The notes beneath the pieces are model-generated. The model did no database searches, had not been told where the DNA came from, and saw nothing but the letters and a program-made list of their open reading frames with translations. Positions 1,224 to 20,566 of a stretch of DNA of 33,762 bases are shown here, one piece after another; the stretch's first letter is position 1, and each line of letters opens with the position of its first letter. This DNA is from a bacterium ADurb.Bin243 (lineage in GTDB: Bacteria > Muiribacteriota > UBA9980), in assembly GCA_002069765.1 (NCBI GenBank), contig MWBZ01000036.1, positions 1-33,762 of the forward strand. The letters run 5' to 3'. The position numbers were made by a program, and so were the translations under genes.

Positions 1224-4136
1224 ATGACAGCGTATTTAAAAGACAATTTTCTGACATTGAATTTCTGGTCCAAGTTTAAAAAACCCTTGGTTTTTCTTGA
1301 TTTTGAAACCACCGGCATCAATTTCGAATCCGACAGGATTATCGAAATCGGCGCATTTCGGGTAAAAAACAACCAGATAGGCGAGCAATACGCCGCTTTG
1401 ATAAATCCCGGAGTGGCGGTGCCTCAAAACATAACCGCGCTTACCGGAATCAGCTCCGAAATGCTTGCAGGCGCGCCTGCTATAGAGTCGCAGAAAGAAA
1501 AATTCGCCGAATTCGTCGGCGGAGCCGTTGTGATAGCCCATAACGCGAGTTTCGAAAAAACTTTTATCGCCCGCGACTTCGCTGAGGCGAAACCGGCCGA
1601 TTTTATCGACAGCTGCGAGATCGCCATGCTTATTATGCCGGCTTTAAAATATTTTAATCTCGAAAAGATACTCAACGTTTTTAATATTAAAGAAAGCGAA
1701 GACCACAGGGCGTTCATAGACGCCGTGGACACTTATTACGCCCTGAACCACCTGATCTCTTATTCTCTGGCGACACATAACGAAGAATATTATAAAATGA
1801 TACTCGCCAGCGCCGCAGGCTGTATGAGCCCTTCCACCGTTGAATTTTTTAAAATTTTATATTCGGCGTACAGGGAATTGAACAAGGGTTCAGGCGCCAG
1901 AAAGGCTTCAACCGCCGCCTGCCCGCGTCAGGAATTTCCCGCCGAAGGGCAGTCGTATTTCAAATTCGCTCCCGAACCGGGCCTCGGCGATTCGCTCGAT
2001 ATGCTTTTCGCTTCCCTTAACGAAAAAAACAGGTTGACCAACGACGATTATATAGTTCAGTCCGGCCTTGTTTCGACCACGCTGAAAACATTCGCCGAAT
2101 CGCGATGCGCCATGGTGGAAATCGCTCATAAGATGAACCGCATAGATTGCCTTTTGCATGCCGGGGCCATTCATGCCAGGCGCACCGGCGAAAGCGTTTT
2201 TATTATCGAGTCTCAGCAGGCTGCGATCGACACCATAGCTAAAAAGCATATTCCGATCGCTATGAAGGCTTTTAACGGCGAAATAAAGTTTCACGCGTTG
2301 AAAGAGCCCGAAAATTATATATGCAACCTGAATTTTGAGCTGCTCGAGGAAAACGCTTCGGACGGCGAGGAAAAATTTTTCCTTCTTTATATCAAATGTT
2401 ACCTGACAGCCTCTCCCGACGGCCATCTCGAAAACGTGGCGCCTTTTCTGACCAATAAATATCCAAGGCTCAAGCAGCATCTCGAATTTATAAAATCTTC
2501 GTCGGATTACTGCCTCAGAGAAAAATGCCCGAGGAATAAAAACTGCTACTTTAAAAACGCGCATTATCATTTTTTGAATTCGGACGTCATAATAACTTCC
2601 ATCGCGACTTATTTAAAATGGAAAGAAATACTTTCCGGGTTGAAAAAAGAAAAAACGCTCAACATTATAATGGACCAGGCGCATAAGATCGAAGACGCCA
2701 TGGTGGAGGCTTTCAGCGGAAGATTCAACGAGCGCGAGCTGTTCGGCGTTCTGGAAGAATTTAAAGATTATTACTCGGTTCTGGTTTCGGCCTGCGCGGC
2801 TTCCCGCGACAGCTCAGGCCGGGGCGGATCGGAAAGAAGCGCTCCAGCCGGGGAAACGGGCGCGAATCCGGCCGAAGGCGACGGCAATTTATGCGTTGAA
2901 AACGCATTGAAGACGGCGCTGCACTCTATCGGCGCGGCGCAGGATTTTTTCGGATGCCTGAAGGCCATAGTCGACCAGATGGCTTTCTGCCGCGACGGCG
3001 CGAAGCCGCCGGCGCCTTCGTCCATAGCTTTGAACAAGCTGGTCGAAGACTGCCAGATGCATGAAATATTTTTTGAAAAACTTATCAACCTTTCGATAAA
3101 TCTTAAGAACGCCCGCCGCACGCTTGAAAAGATCGTAAAGAATATGCTCTATTCTCAAAGCGAAGAGTTTTGCGGATGCAAAAAAAGCGAGGCGGTCTTT
3201 AAAACCCATAAATTTTTAAAATGCATTCAAAAATACGATAATTTTATAGTTCTGATAATTCAGTCGTCGGACCTGACTTTCGTTTCTTATTTAAAGCTGG
3301 ACGGCTTCAAGCAGGAATGGTACATACACGTGGAACCCGTGGACATTGGAAAAATTTTATCTAAAAACATCTTCGGCGACGCCAAAAGCTTTATTCTGGT
3401 TTCCTCGGCTCTTTCTGTCGGAACGAGCTATGAATTCATCAAATGGAACCTGGGCCTTCAAAAGTACAGAAAGCTCGAGCTCACCTCCTACTCGCAATAC
3501 TGCAACAACGTTAAGCTCGACCTTATGGTGCCGCGCGAAATGCCCGTCTTCGACTCGAAAAATACGGCGCCTTTCATATCGCGCTTAAGCGAAATGATAG
3601 TGAAAATCGCGGCAAAGAAGCCCCAGAAAACAATGGTTTTATTTAACTCGGTCGAGCGGATGACGAGCGTTTTTAAAATCGTGAACGAAACGCTTGCCGC
3701 CCGCGGAATAAAATGTTTTTATCAGAGGGGCGAAATGCTCAGCGATAAAGCCCGCGAATTTTTAAAAAGCGAAGCGGCATGCGTCATCCTCGGCTCGCAG
3801 GGGCTTATGGATTTTACCGACCTGTGCGACGAGTCGATAGACACTCTGATAATAGAAAAGCTTCCGTTTCCGTTCTTCGAAGACCCGCGCATCGCCATAA
3901 GAAAGAAAAAGGCCGCAACCGACGGCCTTCAGGAATTCGAAGAATATATGCTTCCTAAAACCATACTGAAAATTAAACAAACGATAGGGCGCATCGGGGA
4001 AAAAAACGGAAAAGGCCTTCTGGTTATAGCCGACTCCAAACTCATAAACGCGAAATATTTCGGCGAAGTCTTAAACGCGCTTCCGCTTTATAACACTTAC
4101 TATACTTTTGAAGAATACTGGAGGGATAATAATTAA
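1224..4136 (+). CDS. DnaQ-like exonuclease fused to a DinG-like helicase with decayed ATPase motifs
   Basis: The 970-residue protein joins an N-terminal DEDD 3'-5' exonuclease to a DinG-like helicase. The exonuclease (about 20-185) looks intact: DFETTG with D26 and E28, AHNASFE (Exo II), and HRAFIDAVDT (Exo III). The helicase part keeps the four DinG iron-sulfur cysteines (C367 in ENYIC, then C430, C435 and C441 with 4- and 5-residue spacing, as in E. coli DinG). The Walker A site, normally EAGTGTGKT, reads HAGAIHARR (about 312-320). DEAH reads DQAH (484-487), motif V reads GLMDFTD, and motif VI reads QTIGRIGE without the final arginine. I infer a nuclease or structural partner that cannot hydrolyse ATP. 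A low-complexity linker lies near 530-560. I chose ATG 1224 with AAAGAG in front; GTG 1188 has no ribosome site. Confidence 0.88.
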   Translation: MTAYLKDNFLTLNFWSKFKKPLVFLDFETTGINFESDRIIEIGAFRVKNNQIGEQYAALINPGVAVPQNITALTGISSEMLAGAPAIESQKEKFAEFVGGAVVIAHNASFEKTFIARDFAEAKPADFIDSCEIAMLIMPALKYFNLEKILNVFNIKESEDHRAFIDAVDTYYALNHLISYSLATHNEEYYKMILASAAGCMSPSTVEFFKILYSAYRELNKGSGARKASTAACPRQEFPAEGQSYFKFAPEPGLGDSLDMLFASLNEKNRLTNDDYIVQSGLVSTTLKTFAESRCAMVEIAHKMNRIDCLLHAGAIHARRTGESVFIIESQQAAIDTIAKKHIPIAMKAFNGEIKFHALKEPENYICNLNFELLEENASDGEEKFFLLYIKCYLTASPDGHLENVAPFLTNKYPRLKQHLEFIKSSSDYCLREKCPRNKNCYFKNAHYHFLNSDVIITSIATYLKWKEILSGLKKEKTLNIIMDQAHKIEDAMVEAFSGRFNERELFGVLEEFKDYYSVLVSACAASRDSSGRGGSERSAPAGETGANPAEGDGNLCVENALKTALHSIGAAQDFFGCLKAIVDQMAFCRDGAKPPAPSSIALNKLVEDCQMHEIFFEKLINLSINLKNARRTLEKIVKNMLYSQSEEFCGCKKSEAVFKTHKFLKCIQKYDNFIVLIIQSSDLTFVSYLKLDGFKQEWYIHVEPVDIGKILSKNIFGDAKSFILVSSALSVGTSYEFIKWNLGLQKYRKLELTSYSQYCNNVKLDLMVPREMPVFDSKNTAPFISRLSEMIVKIAAKKPQKTMVLFNSVERMTSVFKIVNETLAARGIKCFYQRGEMLSDKAREFLKSEAACVILGSQGLMDFTDLCDESIDTLIIEKLPFPFFEDPRIAIRKKKAATDGLQEFEEYMLPKTILKIKQTIGRIGEKNGKGLLVIADSKLINAKYFGEVLNALPLYNTYYTFEEYWRDNN

Positions 4137-5964
4137 TAAATTCGAATATATCCTGCAAAACGTATCCAAACCGCAGCAGTACATCGGCTGCGAGTACGGC
4201 CTGAAGCGAATGGAAACGGACGCGCCGGAAAATAAAAACGCCGTTAAAGTGCTGCTTTCGTTTCCCGATACTTACGAGATCGGTATGTCTAACTTCGCGG
4301 TAAAAATATTGTTTGAAATAATGGAATCTATCGACGGCGTAATATGCGACAGGGCTTTTTTGCCCGAAGACGACTGCGCCGCCCTGATGAAAAAAATCGA
4401 TTATCCCCTGCACTCGCTGAACTACCGCATTCCGGCGGCGGAATTCGACGCCATAGGCGTCACTCTCGAATACGAGCTCAATTATTCGAACGTGCTTCAT
4501 TTGCTGGATCTGGCCGGAATCGCGCTTGAATCGAAGGACAGAAAGGAAACCGACCCCGTCGTGATCGCCGGAGGTTCCGCGTGCGTGAACCCGGAGCCCA
4601 TGGCCGACTTTATAGACGTATTTTTTATCGGAGACGGCGAAGAGGCCGCTGCAGAAATATGCGCCGTTTTGAAAGAAAGTAAAAAGTCCGGGCTTAGCCG
4701 CGGCGAAAGAATAAAGGCGCTTTCAAGGCTCCGGGGCGCTTACGTTCCGGCTTATTACGAGCCGGTTTATGGCGAACCGGGCGTCCAGGCCGGAATTAAA
4801 AAAATTCAGGACGGAGCGCCGGAGCGCATAAAAGTCAGGACTATAAAGGACCTGGATTCGGCTTTTCATCCGGTTAAATTGATAGTGCCTAATTTCGAAA
4901 CGGTTTTTAACCGCGGAGTGGTAGAAATCGCCCGCGGCTGCAAGAACGCGTGCCGCTTCTGCCAGGCGGGGTTCATCTACAGGCCTTACCGCGAAAGAAG
5001 CGTAGAAAACATAAAAAGCATAATAAAAAAAATATTTTTGAACACCGGCTATACCGAGTTTACTCTGTCTTCGCTTTCGGCGACCGATCACGGCGGGCTC
5101 AAAGAGATAATAAACTACACTCTGGGCCTGAACGAAGCAGGAGAAGAATTCCGCGGCGCGCTGTTTTCGGTTTCGCTTCCTTCGCAGAGGATTTCGACGT
5201 TTTCGGTCGAACTGGCGGGGCAGCTTTCCAAAAATAAAAAATCGGGCCTGACTTTCGCTCCGGAAGCCGGGTCGCAGAGGATGCGCGACGTGATAAATAA
5301 GAACGTATCGGAGCAGGATCTTTATACAACGGCTGAAGCGGCCGTCGCTTCCGGATACAGGCTTATAAAGCTTTACTTTATGATAGGCCTTCCGTTCGAA
5401 ACGGACGAAGACCTTCTCGAAATGGCAAGGATCATAAGCCGGGTCGCGGCTATAGCGCGCGAGAAAAAAACTCGCGGCTTTTCGATGAACGTAACTTTTT
5501 CCACCTTCGTGCCGAAGCCTCACACTCCTTTTCAATGGGCGCGGCAGGCTTCGCGCGAAGAGGTGGTCAGAAAGCAGGAGCTGATAAGGGAACAGCTGAA
5601 AAAATACCGCGAGATTTGCCTTAAATTCACCAGATACAGCGTCACTGAATTAGAATCCGCGTTCGCGCGCGGTTCGCGGAAACTTTGCGGAGCGCTTCTC
5701 GACGCTTATAAAGACGGATGCCGTTTTGACGCATGGGACGACAGATTGAAACTCGAAAACTGGCGGAGCGCCTTCGAAAAAAACGGCATGAAACTGGCCG
5801 ATTACGCCACGCGGGAAATCAAACCGGGCGATTATCTTCCCTGGTCGTTAGTCGATACGGGAATCGATGCGGGCTTTCTTGAAGAGGAATTCGAAAGCGC
5901 CGAAAAAGAAAGGGCGACGCCTGCATGCGATCCCGGAAGATGCAAACGCTGCGGAATATGCTAG
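4108..5964 (+). CDS. B12-binding-like radical SAM protein (TIGR03960 type)
   Basis: This radical SAM protein has an N-terminal cobalamin-binding-like domain (about 45-190, with SFPDTYEIGMSNFAV and VIAGGSACVNPEP). A radical SAM core follows, with CKNACRFC (C278, C282, C285) binding a 4Fe-4S cluster. The C-terminus has a cysteine cluster (CDPGRCKRCGIC). The order and the length of about 610 residues fit the TIGR03960 family, which usually sits beside or is fused to DUF2344, as here; its substrate is not established. Start: TTG 4108 is the nearest conventional codon and overlaps the upstream gene by 29 bases, but no ribosome site precedes it. A strong GGAGGG at 4120-4125 instead points to ATA 4126, ATA 4129 or ATT 4132. 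Starting at ATT would give the usual short leader before VSKPQQYIG. Family call is firm, start is not. Confidence 0.9.
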   Translation: MKNTGGIIINKFEYILQNVSKPQQYIGCEYGLKRMETDAPENKNAVKVLLSFPDTYEIGMSNFAVKILFEIMESIDGVICDRAFLPEDDCAALMKKIDYPLHSLNYRIPAAEFDAIGVTLEYELNYSNVLHLLDLAGIALESKDRKETDPVVIAGGSACVNPEPMADFIDVFFIGDGEEAAAEICAVLKESKKSGLSRGERIKALSRLRGAYVPAYYEPVYGEPGVQAGIKKIQDGAPERIKVRTIKDLDSAFHPVKLIVPNFETVFNRGVVEIARGCKNACRFCQAGFIYRPYRERSVENIKSIIKKIFLNTGYTEFTLSSLSATDHGGLKEIINYTLGLNEAGEEFRGALFSVSLPSQRISTFSVELAGQLSKNKKSGLTFAPEAGSQRMRDVINKNVSEQDLYTTAEAAVASGYRLIKLYFMIGLPFETDEDLLEMARIISRVAAIAREKKTRGFSMNVTFSTFVPKPHTPFQWARQASREEVVRKQELIREQLKKYREICLKFTRYSVTELESAFARGSRKLCGALLDAYKDGCRFDAWDDRLKLENWRSAFEKNGMKLADYATREIKPGDYLPWSLVDTGIDAGFLEEEFESAEKERATPACDPGRCKRCGIC

Positions 5965-14117: not shown

Positions 14118-15551
14118 TTACTTCACAACCGCGGGCGCGGCCGCCTTTCCTGCCGCCGCGTTCATTTTATTGGCGACATCGGTAACGTAGGGCCTTTTTG
14201 CGTATAATAAAAGCCTCAGAAGCGAAGTTTTGAAACCGAGGGTGTCGTCTTCTTTAATCGCGCGGTCAAGGTTTTCAGTGTTTTTATCCAGATATAGCAT
14301 TATATCGTCGCGTTTTTCTTCTACATAGCCCAGATACGAATGCTGGCCGAACCCGTCGAAGATCTGGTCGGGCATCATGGCTTCTATATCGCCGCAGAGA
14401 ATAAAATCGGTAAGCGCGTTTTTTACCTCGTAACCGCTCATATAAGAGTAATTAACCGTATAATCTTCGTCTTTTGAACCGTCGGTTTTAACGTCTTTGC
14501 TTTCAGTCCTTGAAAACAAAACTTTTCCGATTATTTCCGTCGTGTCGTCGATTACGCCGTTGCCGTCCAGATCGAGATAATAGCGGTAAACGCAGTCGTC
14601 GGCATAGTTAAACCAGAAATCCTCGAACGCGATTTTGGCTATATCGCCCTTTGCGTCGGACAGGACATATCCGCCGTTTAAAATGCGCCATGGGAAAGCG
14701 TCCCAGTATTGCGAAATTTTAAACGCGTATATTTCTTCGCTCGATTTTACGCCGTTGAAATAATCGCTCATGCTTTGAAAAACGCCGGGTATTTCATTGA
14801 AAAGATATAAGTCCGAGCCCTGCGGCATTACTCCGAAAAGCCCTGTTTCGGCCGAATGATATATAAGCTTCGACTTGCCGGCGTTTTGTTCGTAAAGTTT
14901 TGTACTGTACCTGTATTTATCTCCCAGAAGGCCGAAGTAGCGGCGGCCGTCCGTGAGCCGGTAGCGCCAGACGGGCTTTTGTGCGCCTTCGTCGATCACG
15001 TAAGTGTCGGCGTCAACGGAGCGGGCTATTTCGGGGGCCGTTTCGAGCGTTATCAGCTTGATTTCTTCCGTGGCGGCGCGGGCGTCTATAATGCCGGCAA
15101 CGTTCTGGATATAATTTGAACGCGCGATATCGAATATGGCGCGGGATTTTTCGGACTTGGTCGAAGCCTGGGCCACTTTTTGATAAGTGGTATTTAAAAG
15201 TTCGTATTCGTCTATATCTCCTATTTCACGGCGCTTGGATTTGCACATTATGGCTTTGATCCGAACGTCGTTTTCGCCGGCCTGCATGGTTTCTCCGCTG
15301 AAGATGCCGCCTTCGGAGATGGAGGCGCTCGAAGAACGGTCCACGTGATATCTTGATGAATTGACCGACAGCGTCACCGACTCGTTTACCCTATAAATGA
15401 CGTTGCGTTCTGGATATGAAAGCCGTGACGTGAGATAAAAGTAAAGAAAAAGCCCTATTATAATGCCTCCGAATAAAATTATTCCGAGCGCGCCGACTAT
15501 CCATTTTCTGAGCCATACCGGAATCCGGTCGAGTCTTTCGCCAATAGTCAT
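14118..15551 (-). CDS. Single-pass membrane protein of unknown function with an EF-hand-like loop
   Basis: I do not recognise this 477-residue protein. A short N-terminus (MTIGERLDRIPVWLRKW) precedes one transmembrane helix (about 16-41), and the remaining 430 residues should lie outside the cytoplasm. That domain looks like a beta-rich extracytoplasmic fold and contains DLDGNGVIDD (coding bases near 14548-14578), an EF-hand-like calcium-binding pattern. A helical, charged C-terminal stretch with DKNTENLDRAIKEDD follows, and it ends in an Ala-rich tail. I chose ATG 15551 because AAGGA lies 7 bases before it; the TTG at 15572 would overlap the upstream gene. It sits in the AAA+ operon and may be its envelope-facing component, which is inference. 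Confidence 0.7.
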   Translation of the reverse strand: MTIGERLDRIPVWLRKWIVGALGIILFGGIIIGLFLYFYLTSRLSYPERNVIYRVNESVTLSVNSSRYHVDRSSSASISEGGIFSGETMQAGENDVRIKAIMCKSKRREIGDIDEYELLNTTYQKVAQASTKSEKSRAIFDIARSNYIQNVAGIIDARAATEEIKLITLETAPEIARSVDADTYVIDEGAQKPVWRYRLTDGRRYFGLLGDKYRYSTKLYEQNAGKSKLIYHSAETGLFGVMPQGSDLYLFNEIPGVFQSMSDYFNGVKSSEEIYAFKISQYWDAFPWRILNGGYVLSDAKGDIAKIAFEDFWFNYADDCVYRYYLDLDGNGVIDDTTEIIGKVLFSRTESKDVKTDGSKDEDYTVNYSYMSGYEVKNALTDFILCGDIEAMMPDQIFDGFGQHSYLGYVEEKRDDIMLYLDKNTENLDRAIKEDDTLGFKTSLLRLLLYAKRPYVTDVANKMNAAAGKAAAPAVVK

Positions 15552-15568
15552 ATTAAGATCCTTTAATA

Positions 15569-16165
15569 TCAATAATTATTCAATTTATCGTCGAGTTTTT
15601 TATTCGACTCGTAATTTTTCTTTTCTTTATCGCCGTCTTCTTTTTTATCGCCGTCTTTGAATATATTTTCGGAAGCTTTAGCTATGCCTTCGCCTACCGA
15701 CTTCAATCCGTCCTTGATATTGCTTCCGGCATCCTGTATGGCTTCTACGACGGATTTGCGGGCGCCGTCGTCGTCCGCTTTCGTGCCGGTAGCGTCTGCG
15801 GATCCGGCCGGAAACTTTTCGCTTTCAGCCCCGGCGGCGGGGGAATCTACCGTTTTATCATCGCCGGCCGCGGTTTTGGAAGAGGGTTTCTTAAACGCCC
15901 AGTCGTAGGATTTAAGAAAAAAATCGCCCGTCACAAAGCCGAGGACCATTCCCGCAAGGCAGAACGGAGCGTTAAAGAAGCTGAGGGTGAAAAATCCCAT
16001 GAAAAAATAAGGGGCCATTACTATCGCCAGCGAAAGCCCGAGCTTGAATTTAAAGGTTTTTCCATTTATCCACTCGCTTTTTTTAAAATCTTCGCCGGAA
16101 AAATACCTGTCGAGAACGCTTATAAAAAGAGCTATTATGAAATATCCCAGAAGCCAGTTAATCAT
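15569..16165 (-). CDS. Small membrane protein with a charged cytoplasmic or periplasmic tail, unknown
   Basis: The 198-residue protein has three hydrophobic segments in its first 90 residues (WLLGYFIIALFISVL; LGLSLAIVMAPYFFMGFF; FFNAPFCLAGMVLGFVTG). About 105 hydrophilic residues follow, rich in Ala, Asp, Lys and Ser. The tail contains an amphipathic stretch, VVEAIQDAGSNIKDGLKSVG, and a duplicated KDGDKKEDGDK (coding bases about 15627-15662, an imperfect DNA direct repeat). No family is recognised. Its ATG lies inside the end of the preceding gene (ATGATTAA, 8-base overlap), with AAGGAG 11 bases upstream, so translational coupling is likely. Its place among AAA+ operon genes suggests a membrane anchor for that system. 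Confidence 0.7.
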   Translation of the reverse strand: MINWLLGYFIIALFISVLDRYFSGEDFKKSEWINGKTFKFKLGLSLAIVMAPYFFMGFFTLSFFNAPFCLAGMVLGFVTGDFFLKSYDWAFKKPSSKTAAGDDKTVDSPAAGAESEKFPAGSADATGTKADDDGARKSVVEAIQDAGSNIKDGLKSVGEGIAKASENIFKDGDKKEDGDKEKKNYESNKKLDDKLNNY

Positions 16166-17480
16166 TAATTACATCACTCCTTCTTAATTCACCCGATAGG
16201 TATTTTAGAATATAATATTTCTTTTCGAGCGGCATTCGCACGAGCTCCCTTTCGAGCGCTCCCGCGTCGCTGTAATAACGGCGCACGAAATTGTGCGTGT
16301 CGAAGAGACAGAGCAGCTTATTTACGACGTTGAATTCCGTTTTTGCGAACGCCAGAAGATATTTCGCTTCTTGAGGCATTCTGGCGATTTCTTTCTTTTT
16401 ATTAACTCCAGGACGCTCGAATACTCCCTTTAATTCGTGCAAAGAATTTATGATTTCGGGCATGCCGGAACTTTGCTCCGACCTCGCCCTTTCGAGTTCG
16501 AATTTTGAAAGCCTGTTGACGTCGTAGCCTTTTTCAAGAAGGAATAAATCTTCGAGCAGTTCGGCTTTTTCAAGGATAAAAGCCGGGTTTGTATGGAAAT
16601 TTATAAAATTAAGGGATTGCAGATTTTCGATTACGCTTGCGGAGCTTATTTCAACCGGATATAAGCCGGCTTCCGGTTCGCCGGCGGGCGCGTAATCGCC
16701 TTTGTTGTAAAAAAGCAGCGTGTTTTTATTCGCGGCGTCGAATAATGAAATAATAGTCCTCGGGTAATTCATGTAAAAAGACTGCAGCGCTATGGAAATT
16801 TCGTTTACATAAACTTTTTTGAATATATTTTTTACGCCGCGGCCGGTTTTTTTGACTATTTCCATAATTTCGGCGATATAGGCGTCGGAGAGTATATTGT
16901 CGTCGTCGGCGAGGCCGGAGGCGAGGCTCTGAAGCCTTGAAATATCGGCGACGCGCTCTCCGGCGGTGTCGATATTCATTGTTACGCTGCGCAGCCGGTG
17001 GATTTTGGAAATGTCGTCGAAATTTCTGAGGTTGAACTTGTATTGTATTATGGCGGCTTCGTCTTTCGTCAAAAACTTTATTATTTCGTCGTATTTTTTA
17101 TAAGCGGCGTTCAGGCATTCTTCGAGAAACGAAAAAGGCGCGTCCGCGAGCCTTGCGTCCTGCTGTTCCGGCGAGACCACTATTGAATAATAAGTGGCCG
17201 GCGGCATGAAAAGATAGTTCGGGTTATTCAAAAACTCCGCGATTTCAGGGCAATACCCGTTTTTGTCCATCAGGTACGAGGCGTTTTCTGGAAGGCCGTC
17301 CAGCTGAGAATAGCCGAACACCTTTTTTAAAACGTCTATATAGCGTTTTAAAAGAAAACCGTCGAGCCTGAAAATGTGGTCGGTTTTAAACAGCCTTTCA
17401 AGCAGAGCTTGAGATTCTTTTTCGTATTTTTCCTCATAAAGGCTTTTATATGAGCCTTCACTGCCGTTTTTTTCACTCAT
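16158..17480 (-). CDS. Unknown helical cytoplasmic protein of the AAA+ operon
   Basis: This 440-residue protein matches no family I know. It has no signal peptide or transmembrane helix and is predicted to be almost wholly alpha-helical, with charged amphipathic segments (for example LLEDLFLLEKGYDVNRLSKF) and few glycines. No catalytic motif is visible. Its start codon overlaps the end of the AAA+ ATPase gene (ATGAGTGA), and its stop overlaps the following membrane protein gene by 8 bases, so all three are translationally coupled. An adaptor or structural subunit working with the ATPase is the simplest guess. Confidence 0.75.
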   Translation of the reverse strand: MSEKNGSEGSYKSLYEEKYEKESQALLERLFKTDHIFRLDGFLLKRYIDVLKKVFGYSQLDGLPENASYLMDKNGYCPEIAEFLNNPNYLFMPPATYYSIVVSPEQQDARLADAPFSFLEECLNAAYKKYDEIIKFLTKDEAAIIQYKFNLRNFDDISKIHRLRSVTMNIDTAGERVADISRLQSLASGLADDDNILSDAYIAEIMEIVKKTGRGVKNIFKKVYVNEISIALQSFYMNYPRTIISLFDAANKNTLLFYNKGDYAPAGEPEAGLYPVEISSASVIENLQSLNFINFHTNPAFILEKAELLEDLFLLEKGYDVNRLSKFELERARSEQSSGMPEIINSLHELKGVFERPGVNKKKEIARMPQEAKYLLAFAKTEFNVVNKLLCLFDTHNFVRRYYSDAGALERELVRMPLEKKYYILKYLSGELRRSDVIND

Positions 17481-19377
17481 CGGATTTTTTGCCCTCGTAT
17501 AATTTAACGAATTCTTTTTTAGCTTCGTATTCGTTGATCATGGAATTCAAAATGCGCTCGCGGGCCGAAGTTTTAGCGTCGGATTTATACCTCGCTTCGG
17601 AGTTGAAATACCTTTCGAGCTCGCTCATCACTTTTTCAGCCGTTATAGGCTTGTATAACTCCTTGAGTTTATTGACTTTTTCGACGAAACTCAATTTCAG
17701 AAAGGTTTCGGGTTTCGTAAAAAATTCCTCGGGTATTTCGAAATCGGCGGAATACTCTTTGAGGTTCTCGCCTATGCTGTGTATCGGCCTTCCGGTGAAG
17801 CGCTCGTCTTTTTTCTTGAATTCGATGCAAAGCCTGCCGATATCTTCCCAGGTGCAGCCCTTTTTGCCGCCGCCCGATATTTTAGAAATAAAATCCGAAA
17901 GAATTCCGCCGCCGGTTCCGCTTTTTTCTTGCGCGGCCGTGTTTTTTTCAGGCGCCGCGGCCGGCTCCATGCTTTTGGGTTTAACGAAATCGGTGTCGCC
18001 GTCCACTTTTAAAATACCGGCTTTCAATTGCGGCTGAAGTTTGGTGAATATCAGCGAAGCGTAATCCTGCCATGTTTCGGGGCCGGCCACCAGATAGCGC
18101 TGGTGGAACCTCTGCCTTAAAGCCGAATCAGTGGAGGTGGGCTCGTTGGTGGCGGCGTAAACCTGGCAGTTGCCTATGGGCTTTGTGAACATGCCGTCTA
18201 AAAACTGCATCGTGATATTTAAAACGTCTTTATCGGATCCGCCCATGTTGGGATCGCCGCGCGAGAGCAGCAGAAGGTCTACGTCGTCGAAGAAAACCAG
18301 CATGAGCTTGTTTTTCTGCTTTGTTTTATCCAGCCTGTCGAGCAGGTTTTTACCCGTCTTGCCGTAATATTCGTCTTTTATTCGCTGGTCGATGGATATG
18401 AATTCCACGGGCGTTCCGGTCTGCTCGCCGCGCTCGTGCAGCCTCGACATCGCGAGCTTGAAGAGCGAAGTTTTTCCGGTGCCCGGAAGGCCGTCGAATA
18501 AAACGCTCCAGGAGAGGCCGCCTAATACCGAAATGGGATTGAGCGCCTCTTTGACATCGAAAAGAGCCAGCCTGTCGACATTTCTGATAACGCCGCGCTT
18601 GGAGTCGCTGTTGCCGACGATTTCTTCAGGGCGCACTTTTACGAACTCGATTTTCTGCTCTGACGTGGAGTATTGCGAATCAAAATTAGAAACGCTTATG
18701 TCGTCGCCTTCGACCTTGAATACCGTATTTGAAACCAGCGCCAGCAGGTCGTCGGAAAACTTTTTGCGGTTGTTCACGCAGGCGTTTTTGAGCTGTATGA
18801 AAAAATTATTGGAAAGCCCGACATAATCTATGGAATCTATTATGATCTTCTTTCCCGATTCGTCGGCCGTGTTCAGCGCGTGGACGTAATCGCAAAGAAG
18901 AGTGGATATCGTATCGATTTTACCCTTTGTGAATATGAAATAATCTTCGGCGAGTTTAATCGCGGGAAGGTTTTCGCGTGAATTAACGCTTAGAATGAGC
19001 CCCATTTTTATGGAAACATAACTTGCGAGGGCGAAAAGAGAATAAGTAGTGACGAATTCGAGAGTATCGCGGAATTTTCTTTCGTCGCGGCCGGCGGGCG
19101 AACTTATCATGTGGCCGAGACCGCTTTTGTTTTCCAGCAGATCGAAAATGACCATATATACGCCGAGCCCTTTTCTGATCGCGCGAAGCGCTTCGGCCTC
19201 TTCGAGAGTGTGCAGGTGCTGCTCGTCGGGAACGACTTTCATAACGAAGTCGAAAAGGTTAATCTTGCGCTGGTTGTACAATATATTGGTCATGCGGAAT
19301 TCGCATTCCTCGAGGTGCTTTTTTATGTCGTCCGCGGTTATCGGATGAACGTTGTTTGCTGCGCTTACATTACTCAA
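17473..19377 (-). CDS. AAA+ ATPase of unknown system
   Basis: The 634-residue protein has a 280-residue helical N-terminal region without recognised domains, then a classical AAA+ module. Walker A is GLPGTGKT (296-303), Walker B is MLVFFDDVD (359-367), sensor 1 is AATNEPTS (408-415), and the arginine finger region is LRQRFHQRY (420-428). A disordered Ala/Lys/Gly linker (about 460-500) and a helical C-terminal region follow. It resembles single-ring remodelling ATPases more than helicase loaders or proteases; the substrate is unknown. TTG 19377 is chosen because GGGGGAG lies 6 bases upstream and the codon overlaps the preceding stop. It is embedded in an operon of unknown genes with overlapping ends. 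Confidence 0.88.
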   Translation of the reverse strand: MSNVSAANNVHPITADDIKKHLEECEFRMTNILYNQRKINLFDFVMKVVPDEQHLHTLEEAEALRAIRKGLGVYMVIFDLLENKSGLGHMISSPAGRDERKFRDTLEFVTTYSLFALASYVSIKMGLILSVNSRENLPAIKLAEDYFIFTKGKIDTISTLLCDYVHALNTADESGKKIIIDSIDYVGLSNNFFIQLKNACVNNRKKFSDDLLALVSNTVFKVEGDDISVSNFDSQYSTSEQKIEFVKVRPEEIVGNSDSKRGVIRNVDRLALFDVKEALNPISVLGGLSWSVLFDGLPGTGKTSLFKLAMSRLHERGEQTGTPVEFISIDQRIKDEYYGKTGKNLLDRLDKTKQKNKLMLVFFDDVDLLLLSRGDPNMGGSDKDVLNITMQFLDGMFTKPIGNCQVYAATNEPTSTDSALRQRFHQRYLVAGPETWQDYASLIFTKLQPQLKAGILKVDGDTDFVKPKSMEPAAAPEKNTAAQEKSGTGGGILSDFISKISGGGKKGCTWEDIGRLCIEFKKKDERFTGRPIHSIGENLKEYSADFEIPEEFFTKPETFLKLSFVEKVNKLKELYKPITAEKVMSELERYFNSEARYKSDAKTSARERILNSMINEYEAKKEFVKLYEGKKSDE

Positions 19378-20566
19378 TCAGATCTCCCCCTTCTAAAAGG
19401 CCGTAAATTTTTGCGGGCTTGCCGGTCTCGTCTTTGTCGCGAAGGTATTGCTTAAGTTTAAACGGAACTATCATATAATCGTAAACGAATTTATCTGAAA
19501 AAATCTCGCGGCTGTTTGCGTAGCCGAACAGCGAATTGAAAAAGTTCTTGACTACGGAGCTTTCTTTTATAGTTTTTATCGAAACCAGCCCGGAAGCCTG
19601 AAATTTAAATAAAAACGGATTTTTGGGCTCCATTTTGATCAGCCTGTCGATATGCTCTTCGTTGATGGTAGTGGGCGAATAATAAGGCCCGAGAGTATAT
19701 TTCATAATTACTTTAGGATGGATTTCATGGTCGAAAGTATCTAAATGATGCGCCAGCCTGAATAAATCCTGCTTGTAGTAATTTTTTATCTCGTCTAAAA
19801 ACTGATGCGAACCGTCCTGCCGGAGCTGTTTTGGAGATTGCGAATTTTGCGTCAGCAGCATGGAATAAAAATGAAAAATATTATAGCGCTCGTCGAAACC
19901 GTAAAATATTAGTTTATAAAGGTTTTGCCCGTCCTTTTCGCCTATAAGGACGGGTTTGTTCATTTTATAATCTGAAATAATGCTTTTTTTATCTTTTATA
20001 TATGAAAAATAATTATATTTTGCGTAGGAAAGCTGCTCGCGGATGGGGAATTCGCCGTCGAAGATGGCGTTCATGGCGTTTTTGACTATATCGTCGAGCG
20101 GCGGAAGCATATCCAGCTGGGCGGCGGCCGATTCGTGGTCTTTTTTAAAATTCCACAGGTCCGTGAAATGAGGGAATCCGGATTCCGTAGGGTCTATGGA
20201 AAGCGATGTCGCGTTTATGCCTTTATGCTGCAGTATAAATTTGCGTTTTAGCGCGTTAAAGAAGAATATAAGCTCGTCTAAAAATTCGCAGAAGTCTTTT
20301 TTCGTATCGAAGCTTTCTTCGAGCGGAGCTTTGAAAGAGTAGTTCTCGCTGTTGTAAAAAAGGTCTTTGAGCCTGGTTATTATTAAAATGACGTTGGCGA
20401 GGTAGCCGTTTATTTCTTCGGGCTGTAAAGACTTAACGTTAACCTCGCCAGTTTTAAGGTTAAAAAAATTGGCGAGGTTAACGTCGGTATTAACGGATGA
20501 GTTTTCGTTCTGCGATCTTTCGGCGCCTCGGTCGGCGTCGGTATTATCGATGTTATTTGTATTCAT
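19370..20566 (-). CDS. Unknown soluble protein preceding the AAA+ ATPase
   Basis: I do not recognise this 398-residue protein. The first 35 residues are Asn- and Asp-rich and probably disordered. The rest is mixed helix and strand without signal peptide or membrane span, with many aromatic residues ([38 protein letters not shown]). No catalytic signature is visible. Its ATG lies inside the last codons of pdp (14-base overlap), and its end overlaps the ATPase start, which argues for balanced co-expression with the ATPase. A partner or substrate adaptor is plausible; no function is claimed. Confidence 0.75.

Follow-up and report, generated by a model that had tools for sequence, protein, structure and literature searches.

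A conserved ExoDinG-type protein without ATPase motifs encoded beside an intact DinG helicase in Candidatus Wallbacteria

We analyzed a 33,762-nucleotide stretch of DNA from bacterium ADurb.Bin243 (hereafter the window; contig C36 of genome G000, its start being the contig edge). A single open frame of 970 codons at 1224-4136 (plus strand, as are all window positions below unless marked), already recognized in a preliminary description made by a model from the sequence alone, encodes P0001, a relative of the DinG helicases. P0001 combines an N-terminal exonuclease domain and a complete set of iron-sulfur (Fe-S) cysteines with a helicase half that has lost its ATP motifs; we call such proteins and their genes dead, meaning without ATP motifs. 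The gene lies directly after one for an exonuclease-less DinG whose motifs are intact, and in its genus it is conserved and under strong purifying selection. This arrangement suggests that motor and cutter are split between two proteins in Wallbacteria.

Domains and motifs of P0001

P0001 carries a DnaQ-like, DEDDh-type exonuclease domain at residues 23-173 (1290-1742; Pfam RNase_T, E 1.8e-27) followed by a DinG-type helicase fold (MD1, Fe-S, Arch and MD2), with a Helicase_C_2 match at residues 792-954 (Pfam, E 6.1e-24). The closest solved structure is that of S. aureus ExoDinG (8zef, E 2.2e-35), which matches residues 24-405 and 663-947. A match to NF005981 spans residues 22-959 at 275 bits, far under the equivalog cut-off of 789.

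To compare motifs, we scored alignment columns that are at least 85% conserved among intact proteins. P0001 keeps few of these in motif I (2 of 11), Ia (1/8) and V (1/9), and more in II (3/4), III (2/4), VI (5/9) and elsewhere (17/31). The Walker A sequence EAGTGTGKS of intact DinGs aligns with EIAHKMNRI (residues 299-307; 2118-2144); HAGAIHARR, which the preliminary description took for Walker A, lies just downstream (residues 312-320) and was read in the wrong register. Alignment bears out its replacement of DEAH by DQAH (2673-2684) and its loss of motif V (SQGLMDFTDLCDE, 3795-3833). The motif VI remnant (QTIGRIGEKNGKG, 3978-4016) is one residue short of normal; it was said to lack its arginine, which is true of the second and last Arg but not of the one in GR. 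The motifs now read IIESQQAAIDT (Ia), LVSSAL (III), SQGLMDFTDL (V) and QTIGR-IGEK (VI), and the Asn-His of the Ib region has become Ser-Ile. From these substitutions ATP binding and hydrolysis are predicted to be lost, and motor translocation probably with them. Motifs Ia and V and the Ib Asn-His touch nucleic acid in such helicases. Because these are damaged too, the whole motor groove has decayed, beyond the ATP site, and the loss is not confined to ATP motifs as first proposed.

The exonuclease domain keeps 25 of 26 conserved positions. As described before, D26 and E28 of motif I (1299-1307) and H161 and D166 of motif III (1704-1721) are intact; the description erred at motif II, where the sole change replaces Asp with Glu111 (1554-1556, in HNASFEKTF). 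All three complete orthologues have Glu111, with the other four residues unaltered. Over 82 exonuclease-like frames, the motif II residue is Asp in 73 and Glu in 5, the latter falling in two lineages. An ExoDinG of G320 with intact ATPase motifs (L079:3858-6758 (+)) likewise has Glu at this position (HNADFEVSR). Glu111 need not abolish catalysis, because a natural DEEDh exonuclease with Glu in motif II, coronavirus nsp14, is proven (PMC7654266).

All four Fe-S cysteines are present, as had been noted: C367 (2322-2324) and C430, C435 and C441 (2511-2546), the last three spaced C-x4-C-x5-C. The three complete orthologues share these cysteines, and all three lack the Walker A (GxGKS/T) and DEAH of an active superfamily 2 (SF2)/DinG helicase.

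A 2025 review distinguishes ten subgroups of DinG-like proteins, and ExoDinG is the one that fits P0001. Members of this subgroup (the DinG proteins of S. aureus, B. subtilis and L. monocytogenes; structures 8zef and 9ii8) likewise join an N-terminal DEDDh-type exonuclease to the DinG fold, are of similar length (about 900-970 amino acids) and resemble P0001 over their full length. Known ExoDinGs, however, keep both Walker A and DEAH, which P0001 has lost, and differ from it in motif II, where P0001 has Glu; in Bacillales and Lactobacillales they no longer have the Fe-S cysteines that P0001 keeps. Unlike P0001 with its lost ATP motifs, B. subtilis DinG has a single-stranded DNA-dependent ATPase (PMC12525004). 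Cyanobacterial sDinG is also DinG-like, without ATP-binding residues and with doubtful ATP binding, but it has neither a Fe-S domain nor an extra N-terminal domain such as the exonuclease, and P0001 has both (PMC11981726). The state in which the ATPase is lost and the Fe-S site kept is new within ExoDinG: we found no description of an ATPase-dead, Fe-S-keeping member in the literature and review sections searched.

Conservation, partner and relatives

A scan of genome contigs found loci of the dead gene in the same genus alone (Candidatus Wallbacteria / UBP16 assemblies). Within our genus sample of four genomes (G000-G003) it is present in all four. The orthologues in G001 and G003 are 94% and 78% identical to P0001, and the G002 copy is a contig-edge fragment comprising the last 62 residues, with 94% identity and the same radical SAM gene adjoining. 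In G001 and G003, as in the window, the dead gene comes directly after an exonuclease-less DinG gene and before a radical SAM gene of the TIGR03960 family. The pair is thus found in three genomes, at every locus where the junction is assembled (3/3), with the same order and adjacency and a spacing of 18-68 bases.

Between G000 and G001, the dead gene has a ratio of nonsynonymous to synonymous substitution rates (dN/dS) of 0.057, like its neighbors, the DinG fragment (0.052) and the radical SAM gene (0.072). Over residues 291-370, where Walker A once lay, the ratio drops to 0.012. Comparisons with G003 are less exact, as dS is near saturation (about 1.4-2.3). The sequence that replaces Walker A is identical in the three complete orthologues. 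Low dN/dS and this identical new sequence indicate that the dead gene is functional and that its altered region is constrained.

The upstream partner is cut at its 5' end by the contig edge, leaving in the window its C-terminal part (3-1160; Helicase_C_2, E 2.7e-42) with motifs III, IV, V and VI intact. Its G001 orthologue is complete, a 747-codon frame without an exonuclease domain, and there Walker A (EAPCGIGKS), DEAH, the four cysteines and motif VI (QGVGRLIR) are all intact. In G003 an assembly gap falls within Walker A, yet GKS is visible. Of the findings that the preliminary description named as refuting (a second copy not conserved in relatives, a defective first gene, or two genes that never co-occur), none was seen, and its proposed active/inactive arrangement holds up, being conserved in the genus, under purifying selection and accompanied by an intact partner orthologue. 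G000 also encodes a third DinG-family protein, of 796 amino acids (L040:9576-11963 (+), on C102), with intact ATP motifs and an N-terminal part whose residues, judged by eye, resemble a PD-(D/E)XK nuclease, as in EndoDinG.

We drew ExoDinGs from 382 genomes of many groups, together with the phylum of genome G298, and read their motifs. This survey yielded 42 with intact ATPase motifs and one further dead one, a 923-amino-acid protein of G298 (L106:531-3299 (-), equivalent to G298:C67:3530-6298), which belongs to a different phylum. It reads EAKNDNQSLL at Walker A and YDSH at DEAH, has lost motifs III, V and VI, and keeps the exonuclease residues (with Asp in motif II) and the four Fe-S cysteines. 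Its gene is flanked by a PglZ-domain gene and an HflX-like GTPase gene, and the intact, RadC-like DinG of G298 is on a different contig; since this dead ExoDinG is not adjacent to an intact DinG, adjacency is not needed for the dead state. The order of G298 has no other genome. The protein nests with ExoDinGs of its own phylum (exonuclease tree, support 95/83), the other sampled members of which keep ATP motifs. The two dead lineages joined in 0 of 200 bootstrap trees, and an approximately unbiased (AU) test did not reject a single origin (p 0.47). The ATPase was probably lost independently in G298 and in Wallbacteria. A low-scoring PF13307 candidate in G463 was not another dead ExoDinG but a helicase of 500 amino acids that has ATP motifs.

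The reverse state, with ATP motifs kept and cysteines lost, occurs in five ExoDinGs of G298's phylum: L152 (G383), L154 (G404), L157 (G405), L162 (G382) and L136 (G403). None of the sampled ExoDinGs lacks both ATP motifs and Fe-S cysteines, and the exonuclease is kept throughout both states. The role of the ExoDinG helicase half and its Fe-S cluster is unsettled; because natural ExoDinGs separate ATPase loss from cysteine loss, a role of the cluster outside the motor is directly testable.

Both dead lineages have a second DinG-family helicase, whereas among 39 genomes whose ExoDinG has intact ATPase motifs one clearly does (G365; Fisher 0.0037). Two more of the latter, G405 and G412, gave weak hits over the cut-off that we judged to be other helicases, and counting them would raise p to about 0.012. 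Because similarity guided the choice of these genomes and they are related to one another, the association is suggestive only. An apparently intact long form can coexist with a second DinG. G460 and G461, of another phylum, each have a long PF13307 frame of 953-959 amino acids and a second of about 780-800, and B. subtilis, with DinG and YpvA, has one ExoDinG and one exonuclease-less DinG, as does the genome with the dead gene (PMC12525004). Tandem PF13307 pairs were found neither in the 36 other genomes of the window's phylum nor in the flanks examined elsewhere.

The preliminary description took the two genes for paralogues, and a recent tandem duplication of the pair is neither supported nor excluded. 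The helicase-domain tree places the dead protein among ExoDinGs (Shimodaira-Hasegawa-like approximate likelihood ratio test, SH-aLRT, 94) and, with an SH-aLRT of 93, its partner among exonuclease-less DinGs from the phylum to which both belong. The branch of the dead protein is very long, about 4 changes per column, and an AU test of the two as sisters did not reject that topology (p 0.46). The pair may have arisen by an old duplication or by an ExoDinG coming to lie beside a DinG.

Proposed role and alternatives

On balance we favor the reading that P0001 serves as a 3'-5' exonuclease independent of ATP and shares a pathway with the active DinG. P0001 would degrade single-stranded DNA, RNA or both from the 3' end without ATP, its helicase fold and Fe-S domain would act as a scaffold that binds substrate or a partner, and the co-encoded intact DinG would supply the motor where one is needed. 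When a helicase travels 5'-3', the strand it displaces is left with a free 3' end, on which a 3'-5' exonuclease can act. DinG moves 5'-3' and would expose such an end, so that cooperation would make sense on geometric grounds. Known ATPase mutants that keep nuclease activity speak for ATP independence: Listeria DinG E465A, altered at the DEAH Glu that P0001 has replaced with Gln, keeps a prominent 3'-5' exonuclease (PMC12774634), and B. subtilis DinG K290A, altered in Walker A, still degrades single-stranded DNA (PMC12525004). Separate enzymes sharing one pathway are also known from MrfA and MrfB of B. subtilis, a helicase and a DEDDh exonuclease in one repair pathway (PMC12345164), although MrfA is an SF2 helicase of 3'-5' polarity and MrfB lacks the DinG fold, both unlike the P0001 pair. 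That P0001 itself acts as a nuclease and assembles a cluster is inferred, as are its substrate and its cooperation with the DinG, and P0001-type ExoDinGs may reveal a split helicase-nuclease.

Several points weigh against this reading. P0001 might have little nuclease activity or none, since Glu in motif II is rare, with two lineages among the 82 frames, and conservative changes in the Klenow exonuclease cost >96% of activity, as cited in the nsp14 paper (PMC7654266). Motifs Ia, Ib and V, which contact nucleic acid, have decayed as well. The association with a second DinG draws on two dead lineages. An AlphaFold2 model from three sequences was unusable (predicted local distance difference test, pLDDT, 33) and was discarded.

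A tighter arrangement, an obligate heteromeric helicase-nuclease in which the dead half of a stable complex is structural and binds nucleic acid as AddB or RecC does, is possible by analogy, but we hold it to be less likely. In AddAB and RecBCD, one motor subunit works with a subunit that has a dead helicase fold and a nuclease. Those complexes differ in that their helicase folds belong to superfamily 1 (SF1) and their nuclease fold is unrelated, and the P0001 pair is known from its genes alone. Adjacency and order conserved in three genomes, equal selective constraint on both genes, the conserved sequence that took the place of Walker A, as expected for an interface, and compatible polarities of helicase and exonuclease would all fit a heteromer. 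What speaks for a complex as such nevertheless reduces to the conserved gene adjacency, the tandem was not seen outside the genus in the genomes and flanks examined, the G298 pair sits on separate contigs, and the operon neighbors include unrelated radical SAM genes. We would advance only tentatively the more specific version for Wallbacteria, a two-subunit complex of a DinG motor with a dead-ExoDinG nuclease and Fe-S scaffold, along with more than one loss of the ATPase among ExoDinGs of genomes that have another DinG.

Somewhat less likely still, P0001 could be a stand-alone RNA- or DNA-trimming enzyme without ties to the upstream DinG, for example in ribosomal RNA (rRNA) quality control like Listeria DinG, whose exonuclease, for which the DEAH Glu is dispensable, targets unprocessed rRNA (PMC12774634). 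The G298 dead ExoDinG is unlinked to a DinG, which would suit such an enzyme, and the window also contains an RNase G gene farther downstream, weak evidence because other genes intervene. An intact DinG nevertheless adjoins the dead gene at 3/3 assembled loci.

That all catalysis has been lost, with the Asp-to-Glu change disabling the exonuclease and leaving a binding or regulatory protein, strikes us as improbable. Glu111 is shared by three orthologues and is rare elsewhere, but 25 of the 26 exonuclease positions are conserved, the ATPase-intact G320 ExoDinG also has Glu, and nsp14 is active with Glu there (PMC7654266). A decaying pseudogene or an assembly artifact might account for the very long helicase-tree branch, but we reject decay and give this reading almost no weight, because dN/dS is 0.057, equal to that of the neighbors, the substituted motifs are identical, and the frame is open in three separate assemblies, two of which differ by about 0.6 synonymous changes per site.

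Gene junctions and neighborhood

The start of the G001 DinG gene overlaps the preceding gene's stop, and in three genomes the frame of the radical SAM gene (4132-5964 in the window) overlaps the dead-gene stop; from these overlaps we infer that an operon is likely. A non-standard ATT (or ATA) may serve as the start codon of the radical SAM gene: at its junction (window 4120-4150 and the matching sites of L035 and L036), a GGAGGG site stands before ATAATT-AATAAATTC in three genomes, and the sole upstream TTG (window 4108) is missing in G003, which has TCG. In G001 and G003, the gene before the pair (L035:1422-3902 (+)) encodes a protein of 827-849 amino acids with no Pfam match and one apparent N-terminal membrane segment. 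Farther along the window, a minus-strand block (14118-20566 (-)) includes genes for a DUF6638 protein, an AAA ATPase and three proteins without a Pfam match, of 484, 198 and 398 amino acids.
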